From NCBI GenBank assembly GCA_037388465.1, contig JARRKE010000004.1, positions 1-64,000 of the forward strand: a DNA stretch of 64,000 nucleotides, written 5' to 3'. Made by a program: the position numbers and the translations under genes. Positions within the stretch are counted from its first letter, which is position 1. The number at the start of each line of letters is the position of its first letter. This DNA comes from Gammaproteobacteria bacterium (lineage in GTDB: Bacteria > Pseudomonadota > Gammaproteobacteria > SpSt-1174). Positions 26,461 through 54,390 of this stretch are shown here, one piece after another. Below the pieces are notes generated by a model. The model ran no database searches. It worked only from the letters and a program-made list of their open reading frames with translations, and was not told the origin of the DNA.

Positions 26461-26826
26461 TTGGCTACTACCACACTCACAGAGCAGAATTTCGAGGAAA
26501 CGGTCACCGGCAACGACATCGTGATCGTGGATTTCTGGGCCACCTGGTGTGCACCGTGCCGCGCTTTTGCGCCCATCTTCGAGGCGGCTTCGGAAAATCA
26601 TTCCGACATCGTGTTCGCCAAGGTCAATACCGAAGAGGAACAGGCGCTGGCCGCCCATTTCCAGATCCGTTCCATCCCCACGCTGATGATCTTCCGCGAG
26701 CAGGTCATTCTCTTCGCCCAGCCCGGCATGCTGTCCGCCGCCCAGCTCGAGGACGTCATCGGCAAGGTGCGCGAGCTGGATATGGCCAAGGTGCATGAAG
26801 AAATAGCGAACCAGCAGGCCGGTTGA
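26461..26826 (+). CDS. Thioredoxin-family protein, active site WCAPC
   Basis: This 121-aa protein has a single thioredoxin fold: VIVDFWATWCAPCRAF with the redox pair CAPC (Ala where classical thioredoxin has Gly) and cis-Pro in RSIPTLMIF. No signal peptide, so it is cytosolic. The start is TTG at 26461, preceded by GAGGA at seven bases. A non-ATG start often gives modest expression. It is probably a general disulfide reductase rather than the main thioredoxin. Confidence 0.9.
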   Translation: MATTTLTEQNFEETVTGNDIVIVDFWATWCAPCRAFAPIFEAASENHSDIVFAKVNTEEEQALAAHFQIRSIPTLMIFREQVILFAQPGMLSAAQLEDVIGKVRELDMAKVHEEIANQQAG

Positions 26827-26871
26827 TCCTCCGAAAAACTTGCCAGGGATCAAGGATTGTGCTGCGGGCGA

Positions 26872-26900
26872 TTGTCAGCCCCGGCTAAACTTTTTATATT
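26872..26900 (+). promoter_or_regulatory. Promoter of the cold-shock gene
   Basis: TTGTCA (26872-26877), a 17-base spacer and TATATT (26895-26900), each one base from consensus. Transcription would begin near 26907, just before the long hairpin at 26913-26976. Confidence 0.7.
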
Positions 26901-26912
26901 TAATAGTGGGTT

Positions 26913-26976
26913 TGCGGTATCGCGAGTTGCCTTTCGCGTGTACTCCACTGCAGTAACCGCAACCCGCGATACCGCA
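26913..26976 (+). promoter_or_regulatory. Long hairpin at the 5' end of the cold-shock mRNA
   Basis: Two 18-base arms (26913-26930 and 26959-26976) pair over their whole length with a single A-C mismatch, enclosing a 28-base loop. The hairpin starts about six bases into the predicted transcript and ends 28 bases before the csp ATG. The Shine-Dalgarno (AAGGAG) lies outside the stem. Cold-shock mRNAs are known to use 5' UTR structure for temperature control; this particular element I do not recognise. Confidence 0.75.
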
Positions 26977-27004
26977 TGTGTTCTGGTTTACAAGGAGTTA
27001 CACC

Positions 27005-27211
27005 ATGCGCACCGGTATCGTGAAGTGGTTCGATACTAAGAAGGGATTCGGCTTTATAACGCCGGATGATGGGACACAGGACGTGTTCGTACACTTCTCT
27101 GCTATTAGGATGAACGGCTACAAGACGCTCGACGAAGGGCAGGCTGTACATTTTGAGAGCGAGGCGGGCGAAAAAGGCCCGCAGGCCACTCTCGTAAACC
27201 CTACCAAATAA
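27005..27211 (+). CDS. Cold-shock domain protein
   Basis: This 68-aa single cold-shock domain has RNP1 KGFGFI and RNP2 VFVHF. Proteins of this family bind single-stranded RNA and DNA and melt RNA structure. The ATG at 27005 follows AAGGAG with good spacing. Its own promoter, a structured 5' UTR of about 98 bases and a terminator make it a separate unit. Confidence 0.95.
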
Positions 27212-27250
27212 GGCCTAGGCGTACCCTGATACATTTGATCCGTTTTTAAG

Positions 27251-27276
27251 AAAAGCCCGGTGACGGGCTTTTTCTT
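27251..27276 (+). terminator. Rho-independent terminator after the cold-shock gene
   Basis: AAAAGCCCG-GTGA-CGGGCTTTT continuing into TCTTT, 39 bases after the stop. It is nearly symmetric and could also work on the other strand. Confidence 0.85.
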
Positions 27277-27337
27277 TGCCTGCGTGGTTCACGCATGCGC
27301 TATGGTTGTCATGCTGCCATGACTTGGGGAGGGGGAT

Positions 27338-28261
27338 ATGGTCGGTGTGATTCTGCAGATGGGCGCCCTGATCCTGTGCGGGGTGATCTGGCGACTGCTC
27401 AAGCCGGGCGGGCTGCACGCCGGAGAGACACGGCGCGTGCTGACCAGCGTGGTCTATTATCTGCTGCTGCCCGCGCTGGTGCTGTCCGTGTTGTGGCAGG
27501 CCCCGCTGGGCCTGAATTCCCTGCGCATCTCCCTGGTTGCGGGCGTTACCGTCCTGGCGGCCATGCTGGTGACCTGGGGCGGTTGCCGCAGCTGCCATAG
27601 CCAGTCCCCCTCCACGGGCGCGATGCTGCTGGCGGCCAGCTTTCCCAACGCCACCTACCTCGGCCTGCCGGTGCTTGAGAAGGTGCTCGGCAATCCCGGT
27701 CGCAGCATCGCCATTCAGTACGACCTGTTCGCCTGCCTGCCCCTGCTGTTGACCGTCGGCCTGTATGCGGCGCAGCACTTCGGCGGTGGTGCGCGGCGCG
27801 CCCATCCGCTGCACGAGTTGCTCAAGGTACCGCCGTTGTGGGCCGCCGTGGTGGCGGTTGCGCTCAATCTCGCCCACGTCGAGATGGGAGACTGGCTGCA
27901 GCACTGGCTGGGGCTGCTGGCCTCGGGGGTGGTGCCGCTGATGCTGTTTTCGCTGGGCTTGAGTCTCGAACTGGGTACCTGGCATCCCCGGCAGCTGCCC
28001 GCGCTGGGCGCGGTGGTGGTGATCCAGCTCCTGCTCGCCCCGCTGTTCGCCTGGTGGCTGGCGCGCGTCGTCGGCCTGAGCGGTACCAATCTCACCGGCG
28101 TGGTGCTGGAGGCGGGTATGCCGAGTATGGTGCTGGGGATCGTCATCTCCGACCGGTTCGGTCTGGATACGCCGTTGTACGCCGCCGCGGTGACGGTGAC
28201 GACCGCGCTGAGCCTGGTGAGCCTGCCGTTCTGGTTCGGGGTGCTGGGTGGGGGCGTCTAG
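27338..28261 (+). CDS. AEC-family transporter
   Basis: This 307-aa membrane protein has about ten hydrophobic helices and the AEC/auxin-efflux-carrier pattern: a helix with LLLPALVLSVL, SFPNATYLGLPVL in the first half, VVPLMLFSLGLSLEL and EAGMPSMVLGIVISDRFGLD in the second. Family members export organic acids or similar anions; the substrate cannot be told here. The ATG at 27338 follows a G-rich Shine-Dalgarno. Confidence 0.88.
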   Translation: MVGVILQMGALILCGVIWRLLKPGGLHAGETRRVLTSVVYYLLLPALVLSVLWQAPLGLNSLRISLVAGVTVLAAMLVTWGGCRSCHSQSPSTGAMLLAASFPNATYLGLPVLEKVLGNPGRSIAIQYDLFACLPLLLTVGLYAAQHFGGGARRAHPLHELLKVPPLWAAVVAVALNLAHVEMGDWLQHWLGLLASGVVPLMLFSLGLSLELGTWHPRQLPALGAVVVIQLLLAPLFAWWLARVVGLSGTNLTGVVLEAGMPSMVLGIVISDRFGLDTPLYAAAVTVTTALSLVSLPFWFGVLGGGV

Positions 28262-40422: not shown

Positions 40423-41067
40423 CGACAGCGTCCGCCAGCCACGCTCCCCTGCGATCCGGGTGAGCGGCTCGTCGGCGTCCACGGCCACGGGATGGTCGAC
40501 CAGTTCCAGCAGCGGCAGGTCGTTGTGGGAGTCGCTGTAGAACCAGCTGTCCTGCAGGTTGCGGCCGTGTTCCTCCAGCCATTGCTGCAGCCGGGTGACC
40601 TTGCCCTCGCGGAAACAGGGTACGCCGGCGATGCGTCCGGTATAGCGGCCGCCGTGGAATTCGGGATCGGTGGCCAGCAGGTGGTCGACCCCCAGTTCGC
40701 GGGCGATCGGCTCGGTGACGAAACGGTTGGTGGCGGTGATGATCAACAGGGTGTCGCCGCGGCCGCGGTGCGTATCGAGCAGGTCCCGGGAGCCGGCGCT
40801 GATCATCGACAGGATCACTTCTTCCATGAACTGCACGCGCCAGGCCTGAAGCTGCGCCACCGGGTTTTCCGCCAGGGGGCGGAAGGCGAAACGCGCGAAT
40901 TCGTGGATATCGAGCGTGCCGGCCTTGTACTGCTCGTAAAAGGCCAGGTTGGTGCGTTCGTAGGTTTCCCCGTCAACTACACCCAGGCGCACCAGAAAGC
41001 GTCCCCACTCGTAATCGCTGTCGCCCTGCAGCAGGGTGTGATCGAGATCGAAAATGGCCAGCGCCAC
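40411..41067 (-). CDS. HAD-IB family phosphatase (SerB-like)
   Basis: This 218-aa HAD hydrolase has the nucleophile motif FDLDHTL at the N-terminus, an alpha-helical cap, [12 protein letters not shown] (motif II) and [10 protein letters not shown] (motif IV). The HAD-IB type acts on small phosphorylated metabolites; the substrate is unknown. The start is GTG at 41067 with a strong GGAGGA upstream. Divergent from rppH. Confidence 0.88.
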
Positions 41068-41191
41068 GCGGAATCCTCCGTCCGTTTGCAAAAGGGCGGA
41101 TTGTAACGGGAACGGCGCGCCAAGACATTTGCCGGGTCGCAACGAGTGTGGAAAAATCGAATCATGGAAGGTATGGTCAAGGGCAATACAG

Positions 41192-41677
41192 GTGATTGAT
41201 TCCGAAGGGTTCAGGGCCAACGTCGGTATCATCCTCTGCAATCGTGACGGCAGTTTATTCTGGGGCAAGCGCACAGGGCAGGATGCCTGGCAGTTTCCCC
41301 AGGGCGGGATCAAGTCCAGCGAGACTCCCCGCGACGCGCTTTTCCGTGAGCTGCAGGAAGAAACGGGCCTGCTTCCCGAACATGTCGAGGTGATCGGCTG
41401 GACCCGGCGCTGGCTGCGTTACCGGCTGCCACGGCATCTGATTCGCCGCAACAGCTGGCCGCGTTGCATCGGGCAGAAACAGCGCTGGTACCTGCTGCGT
41501 CTGATCGGGGATGAAGCCTGCGTGCAGCTGGATGCCTCGGAACACCCGGAATTCGACAGTTGGTGCTGGATCGACTACTGGCGGCCCGCCCGCGAGGTGG
41601 TGTTTTTCAAGCGCAAGGTCTATCAACGCGCCTTGAGTGAACTCGAACCCTGTCTGCACAAGATACTGGAAGAGTAG
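41192..41677 (+). CDS. rppH: RNA pyrophosphohydrolase
   Basis: RppH removes pyrophosphate from the 5' end of mRNAs, opening them to RNase E decay. The 161-aa Nudix protein has the box [20 protein letters not shown] followed by TGL, with the start region [11 protein letters not shown] and [11 protein letters not shown]. The start is GTG at 41192 (family N-terminus VIDSEGFR). ptsP follows in the same direction, the order also found in E. coli. Confidence 0.95.
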
Positions 41678-53916: not shown

Positions 53917-53946
53917 GACCCGGCGCGTGTGCGGCCTGCTAACGGC

Positions 53947-54390
53947 ATGACACAGCGCTACAAACGGCCCGAATCGGTGCTGGTGGTGATCCATACCCCC
54001 GACCGGCAGGTTCTGATGCTCCGCCGGCGCGAGCCGGCGGACTTCTGGCAGTCCGTCACCGGCAGTCTGGCCTGGGACGAGACGGCCCTTGAAGCCGCCC
54101 GGCGCGAACTGGTCGAGGAGACCGGTTTCGCGCCCGAGGATCTGGTGGATACCGGCCGCGTCAACCGCTTTCCCATCATCCCGCCCTGGCGTGCCCGCTA
54201 TGCGCCGGAGGCAAGCGAGAACGTCGAGCACCTGTTCACCCTGCGGCTGCCGCATCCCACGGCTCCGCGCCTGAACCCCGGGGAGCACCTCGAATGGCGC
54301 TGGCTGTCCTGGACGGATGCCGCCGCGCTGGCAAGCTCCTGGACCAATCGCGATGCCATCCTCGCGCTGGGGGAGGGCGACCATGCGTGA
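53947..54390 (+). CDS. nudB: Dihydroneopterin triphosphate pyrophosphatase (Nudix)
   Basis: This 147-aa Nudix hydrolase removes pyrophosphate from dihydroneopterin triphosphate in folate synthesis. The box is GSLAWDETALEAARRELVEE followed by TGF, with KRPESVLVVIHT at the N-terminus and WLSWTDAAAL near the end. The position directly after aspS is the usual one in gammaproteobacteria. It overlaps the next gene by 8 bases. Confidence 0.9.
   Translation: MTQRYKRPESVLVVIHTPDRQVLMLRRREPADFWQSVTGSLAWDETALEAARRELVEETGFAPEDLVDTGRVNRFPIIPPWRARYAPEASENVEHLFTLRLPHPTAPRLNPGEHLEWRWLSWTDAAALASSWTNRDAILALGEGDHA

Follow-up and report, generated by a model that had tools for sequence, protein, structure and literature searches.

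Upstream of a gene for a cold-shock protein of the CspA family (csp) there is a long inverted repeat, which raises the question of whether it shapes the 5' end of the csp mRNA and, if so, what such a structure could do for the expression of the gene. The stretch of DNA analysed comprises 64,000 nucleotides and is referred to here as the window; coordinates are those of the window and refer to the plus strand unless stated otherwise. Our leading reading is that this is a leader acting in cis on an mRNA with csp as its single gene, and that it has two rival folds (A and B); we hold it tentatively and at somewhat less than an even chance.

Promoter, hairpin and csp gene

The csp gene (27005–27211, ATG at 27005) encodes a protein of 68 amino acids that matches the Pfam CSD model with 104.8 bits (cut-off 27; E = 2e-30). 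It is separated by a gap of 178 bases from a thioredoxin-like gene (26461–26826), and the same order of the two genes (26461–27211 in the window) is found in a sister genome at locus L010. Within the 170 nt before csp the top promoter-like site is a sigma-70-like promoter, TTGTCA-17-TATATT (26872–26900; score 13.1 versus 4.2 for the runner-up), which matches the consensus at 10 of 12 positions; a scan of 1.2 kb gave no other sigma-70-like site. It should be noted, however, that 0.7 such sites are expected by chance, so that the consensus match alone is little proof. Transcription is predicted to start at 26905–26908, 5–8 nt past the −10 element and about six bases before the repeat, as had been proposed for this promoter in the original prediction; the csp mRNA would then have a leader of 98 nt. 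Downstream of the gene an intrinsic terminator can be read from the sequence (GAAAAGCCCG-GTGA-CGGGCTTTTTC, 27250–27274), which aligns with the terminator of the Rfam cspA model, and given this terminator of its own csp is probably transcribed as a single gene. Open frames on the minus strand (27215–27985 and 26900–27151) lie over csp and its neighbour and are probably spurious, as can be found in DNA of high G+C content.

The inverted-repeat search finds a 5' arm (26913–26930), a loop of 28 nt (26931–26958) and a 3' arm (26959–26976), followed outside the stem by the Shine-Dalgarno sequence AAGGAG (26992–26997). The 18-nt arms pair at 17 of 18 positions (94% complementary, one mismatch). With +1 for a match and −2 for a mismatch the repeat scores 15, whereas the 133-nt sequence, dinucleotide-shuffled 4000 times, never exceeds 11, and it is the highest-scoring inverted repeat with a loop of up to 60 nt in the whole window. 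The geometry originally described (two 18-base arms, one mismatch, a 28-base loop and the Shine-Dalgarno sequence outside) is correct in its coordinates, and the shuffles confirm its rarity. The folding energy of the 133-nt leader is less striking (z = −2.4); taken together, 61 csp leaders are more stably folded than their shuffles, with a mean z of −1.3. An inverted repeat so far beyond chance, in the order promoter, hairpin, Shine-Dalgarno sequence, counts for the reading as a leader, and most likely the csp mRNA starts with a strong hairpin, which is here called fold A.

Operators and dispersed repeats can also be long inverted repeats, and the element could in principle act at the level of DNA, as a palindrome bound by a protein or as a mobile repeat, without any role in RNA. 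This is very unlikely: a spacing of 28 nt between the arms is unusual for an operator, the element lies entirely downstream of the predicted start, and there is no further copy in the genome except for a 14-nt chance match. A dispersed palindromic repeat of the REP or MITE type was rejected because the element is present in a single copy in the 2.8-Mb genome. Leader hairpins of similar size act in other genes as RNA thermometers that melt on warming, and the original prediction had considered a thermosensor here. For the melting type this is scarcely credible, since the stem does not include the Shine-Dalgarno sequence and its energy at 37 °C is about −33 kcal/mol. Opening of the Shine-Dalgarno sequence and AUG by temperature was likewise rejected, their predicted accessibility being nearly flat from 5 to 42 °C in an equilibrium model. 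A thermosensor of another type, a cspA-like switch between two folds, is possible on the folding models.

A predicted rival fold of the leader

The models predict that the hairpin has a competing fold (B), which the original prediction had missed. The sequence CGGTATCGCGA inside the 5' arm is repeated as CGGTATCGTGA at codons 3–7 of csp, and because the 5' arm resembles the coding start, the 3' arm is able to pair with either. In fold B the segment CGCGATACCG of the 3' arm (26965–26974) forms 10 bp with the near copy of the 5' arm at codons 3–6 (CGGTATCGTG, 27013–27022), and the 5' side (26909–26918) pairs with ACCGCAACCC (26956–26965). For the full transcript (26907–27278) at 37 °C, default parameters yield −132.7 kcal/mol for A and −136.9 kcal/mol for B, with probabilities P(A) of 0.18 and P(B) of 0.81. 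The near-balance of the two is seen in four parameter sets; which fold is favoured varies with the set and with transcript length. For example, for the full transcript at 37 °C the Langdon parameters favour A and those of Andronescu favour B, and Turner 1999 is split. To call the leader bistable is thus a fair prediction; to say that B wins is not. The consequence for the start region would be considerable: opening −17 to +15 at 37 °C costs 8.8 kcal/mol in A and 19.8 kcal/mol in B, about 11 kcal/mol more, in the default model.

Transcripts truncated at up to ~27016 fold as A alone, and removal of the 5' arm leaves B alone. The latter result bears on the proposal that the hairpin is a substrate of RNase III, as in Staphylococcus aureus cspA, whose mRNA has a shorter leader, is more stable and is translated better once cut. 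The position of the hairpin and the type of gene match that case and RNase III (rnc) is encoded in the genome, but here a leader without its 5' arm is predicted to fold only into the closed form B, which is the opposite outcome, and a stem of 18 bp with one mismatch is short for a typical site. We consider cleavage by RNase III quite improbable.

How particular the coding start is to fold B was assessed in several ways. The native coding sequence permits fold B at P 0.99; of 300 synonymous recodings 1.7% gave B with P above 0.5 and 0.3% with P of 0.9 or more, in a test that is optimistic because the recoding drew on the codon usage of neighbouring genes and not on that of highly expressed genes. 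Among other csp coding starts 2 of 116 permit fold B. The complementarity between 3' arm and coding start has a p value of 0.04 against shuffled leaders, and was spotted post hoc. A survey of 117 csp leaders shows no excess of pairing between leader and coding start (3 below 0.05), and such pairing was therefore rejected as a general rule for csp. Moreover, GGTATCGTG is also present in the paralog of the same genome (L003), so that the codon choice may be a family habit. The rival fold is missing from L003, from the csp at L010 and from a further csp of the sister genome (L013).

In the nearest-neighbour model the equilibrium tips slightly towards B in the cold. The equilibrium alone thus gives no cold induction, and kinetic trapping of A would be needed. 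This is permitted by the estimated barriers from A to B, which with default parameters are ~17–19 kcal/mol at 37 °C and 24–26 kcal/mol at 10 °C, both being upper bounds. As they are high at 37 °C too, transcripts might seldom get to B.

The working that we infer from these predictions, for the start site and the folds in vivo as well as for the refolding, the effect of temperature and the part played by Csp, would be as follows. Transcription would begin at ~26907, and fold A would form once 26976 is made, ahead of the emergence of the coding start. Holding the 3' arm off the coding region, fold A would let ribosomes face just a weak start-site hairpin. In fold B the 3' arm would lie on codons 3–6 and the 5' arm on 26956–26965, with the Shine-Dalgarno sequence and the AUG inside a long stem. 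Translation would proceed from fold A, which would persist in the cold. The closed state, fold B, would arise by slow refolding, which the RNA-melting Csp could accelerate; this would be negative feedback, a form of the autoregulation that the original prediction had also suggested. That such a kinetic switch operates, with the 5' arm and the coding start competing for one antisense arm, with fresh transcripts open and with Csp speeding their closing (autoregulation by RNA annealing), is in our estimate unlikely.

The loop of the hairpin offers another route to the start site. A stretch of it (GTGTACTCC, 26938–26946), as read from the sequence, is complementary to the Shine-Dalgarno sequence and spacer (26994–27003) and could pair with GGAGTTACAC in a pseudoknot, in which case the hairpin would be an anti-Shine-Dalgarno element that represses translation until a ribosome or Csp opens it. 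The duplex has nine Watson-Crick pairs and one bulged base, and with −12.5 kcal/mol it is better than 97% of dinucleotide-shuffled loops (p 0.03, post hoc); with a wider target or with 28-mers of the window as control, however, p is 0.10–0.16. A covarying pseudoknot between loop and tail exists in csp leaders of Planctomycetota (see below), but an equivalent was not found by eye in L003, L010 or L013, and the pairing competes with the local start-site hairpin. We regard this anti-Shine-Dalgarno function as quite unlikely. The pseudoknot would shut the start site within fold A and thus counts against A as the open form.

Hairpins at the predicted start of other csp transcripts

In two other genomes of the same order a single ortholog was found, the syntenic locus L010 (Csp 77% identical, preceding thioredoxin 80%). 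Its leader fails to align with the hairpin arms, whose sequences are thus not conserved. Six bases beyond its best predicted promoter (TTGTGC-17-TATGCT) there is nevertheless a hairpin at the predicted +1, GATGCCC-ACTGCC-GGGCATC, which is shorter than that of the window. The best hairpin is also located at the predicted start in the paralog L003 (offset −4) and in L013 (offset 0), the offset in the window being +6; the transcript starts in all these leader comparisons are predictions. The original prediction had held that arms lost while csp is kept would speak against it: at the level of sequence the arms are indeed not conserved in L010, but a hairpin at the predicted start of the transcript is.

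Hairpins of unrelated sequence at or near +1 in L003, L010 and L013 are what would be expected if the presence of a 5' stem were all that counts. This is the simplest alternative, a plain 5'-terminal stabilising stem of the ompA/papA type that slows the access of RppH and RNase E and involves no switch; protection of mRNA from both enzymes by 5' structures is known (PMC3997798). RppH from Bacillus subtilis reportedly needs only two unpaired bases and prefers three or more (PMC3997798), however, and the 5–8 unpaired 5' bases of fold A exceed this need, so that fold A should not block RppH. In addition, 18 bp with a 28-nt loop are more than the job requires. We consider a plain stabilising stem possible, if on the unlikely side. 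The same unpaired bases weaken the original proposal of a cap-like stem that blocks RppH. The hairpins of the ortholog and the paralog, at or next to +1, suit a cap better than that of the window; fold B would begin at 26908–26909 (start 26905–26908). The rppH gene noted in the window is indeed there, as a NUDIX-domain RppH-like gene (~41042–41677), at 14 kb from csp and hence without an operon link. A second NUDIX gene is located at 53917–54390.

The leading reading, a structured leader, can be compared with csp leaders from more distant bacteria. In Planctomycetota, 16 of 17 csp leaders have their best inverted repeat beginning between −5 and +10 relative to the predicted start; these are related sequences and not independent events, and in the "other" csp group this holds for one of six. 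When every csp leader that has a predicted promoter is considered, the first 16 nt pair just slightly more than in shuffles (0.58 versus 0.49), which argues for a layout that is group-specific rather than universal. The 5'-terminal hairpin is thus a recurrent layout in some csp lineages, as judged with predicted starts, and the window provides a large example of it.

For the covariation search proposed originally, the hairpin of the window has no alignable counterpart, since among three genomes of the order its sole ortholog has a different leader, but csp leaders of Planctomycetota do covary. In these, the loop of a 5' hairpin pairs with bases further downstream, ahead of the Shine-Dalgarno sequence. 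In a first alignment (A1) of 19 sequences, covering the last ~95 nt before csp (L032, L034, L045, L050, L054, L055, L074, L086, L090 and others), the proportion of paired cells is 89.7%, versus a maximum of 60.6% under sliding, and 12 pairs are changed on both sides, a number reached by none of 500 shuffles (mean 6.2). The hairpin is TATTCT..AGAATA, the loop GTCTCTC pairs with GAGAGAC, the two co-changing to GCCTCTC/GAGAGGC, and a GGCC..GGCC hairpin comes after the pseudoknot and before the Shine-Dalgarno sequence. A second subgroup of 13 (alignment A2, including L025, L027, L036, L056, L058, L060, L068, L071, L075, L078 and L079) has a covarying 5' hairpin of ~20 bp, the loop of which (CCCTC) pairs with an invariant GAGGG just ahead of the Shine-Dalgarno sequence. 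No Rfam family scored above threshold in nine loci searched, and the pseudoknot leader of Planctomycetota is a candidate for a new RNA family. It indicates that csp mRNAs can hold such structures under selection; it does not speak for homology to the leader of the window. In three Aquificota genomes (L046, L049 and L051, csp leaders of Hydrogenothermaceae/Sulfurihydrogenibium) inverted repeats of ~25 bp, AGAAGATGTTTAAAGAAGT and TTTCTTTAAACCTCTTCT, are conserved at about −140 to −37.

Comparison with known csp leaders and 5' stems

With the ompA and papA stems, as cited in PMC3997798, the hairpin shares its place at or near the 5' end of the mRNA. A stem of this type should have hardly any unpaired bases ahead of it, whereas the stem of the window in fold A is preceded by 5–8, and its 3' arm can pair with the coding region. 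If the hairpin is just a stabilising stem, it is ordinary. Cleavage of the long 5' hairpin of S. aureus cspA by RNase III increases the half-life from under 2.5 min to over 16 min (Lioliou et al., 2012, PMC3386247). Both csp mRNAs carry a long hairpin close to the 5' end, with the Shine-Dalgarno sequence downstream of it, and their leaders are of similar length (113 nt in S. aureus, 98 nt in the window); the difference is that in the window the start region is predicted to become closed, not open, once the 5' arm is gone.

The closest precedent for two folds, by analogy, is the thermosensor of Escherichia coli cspA (RF01766; Giuliodori et al., 2010, as discussed in PMC9947658), likewise a CspA-family gene with a structured 5' leader. 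There two folds compete, and the form at 37 °C, which joins the 5' UTR with the coding region, is described as the less accessible one (PMC9947658); of the folds predicted for the window, too, the closed one joins the leader with the coding region. The leader is shorter in the window (98 nt versus ~160 nt), and the helix of E. coli is situated further into the coding sequence, whereas that of the window would cover codons 3–6. A search with the RF01766 covariance model found no homology of the leader to E. coli cspA: membership of the family was rejected at 56.9–59.8 bits (threshold 78; E. coli control 500.8), a score that comes from the coding sequence and the terminator. A switch like that of E. 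coli cspA would suit a cold-shock gene and has modest support from the folding models; the rival fold is not conserved.

The placing of the best hairpin at the predicted transcript start recurs in this csp family and in Planctomycetota, so that csp leaders could be compared across phyla. If the switch were real, the leader of the window would be a compact, mimicry-based counterpart of the thermosensor in E. coli cspA, unrelated to it in sequence, and it would suggest that 5'-terminal hairpins timing the translation of csp have evolved repeatedly. We view the leader of the window as one more of the structured csp leaders already known, in a variant specific to its lineage.
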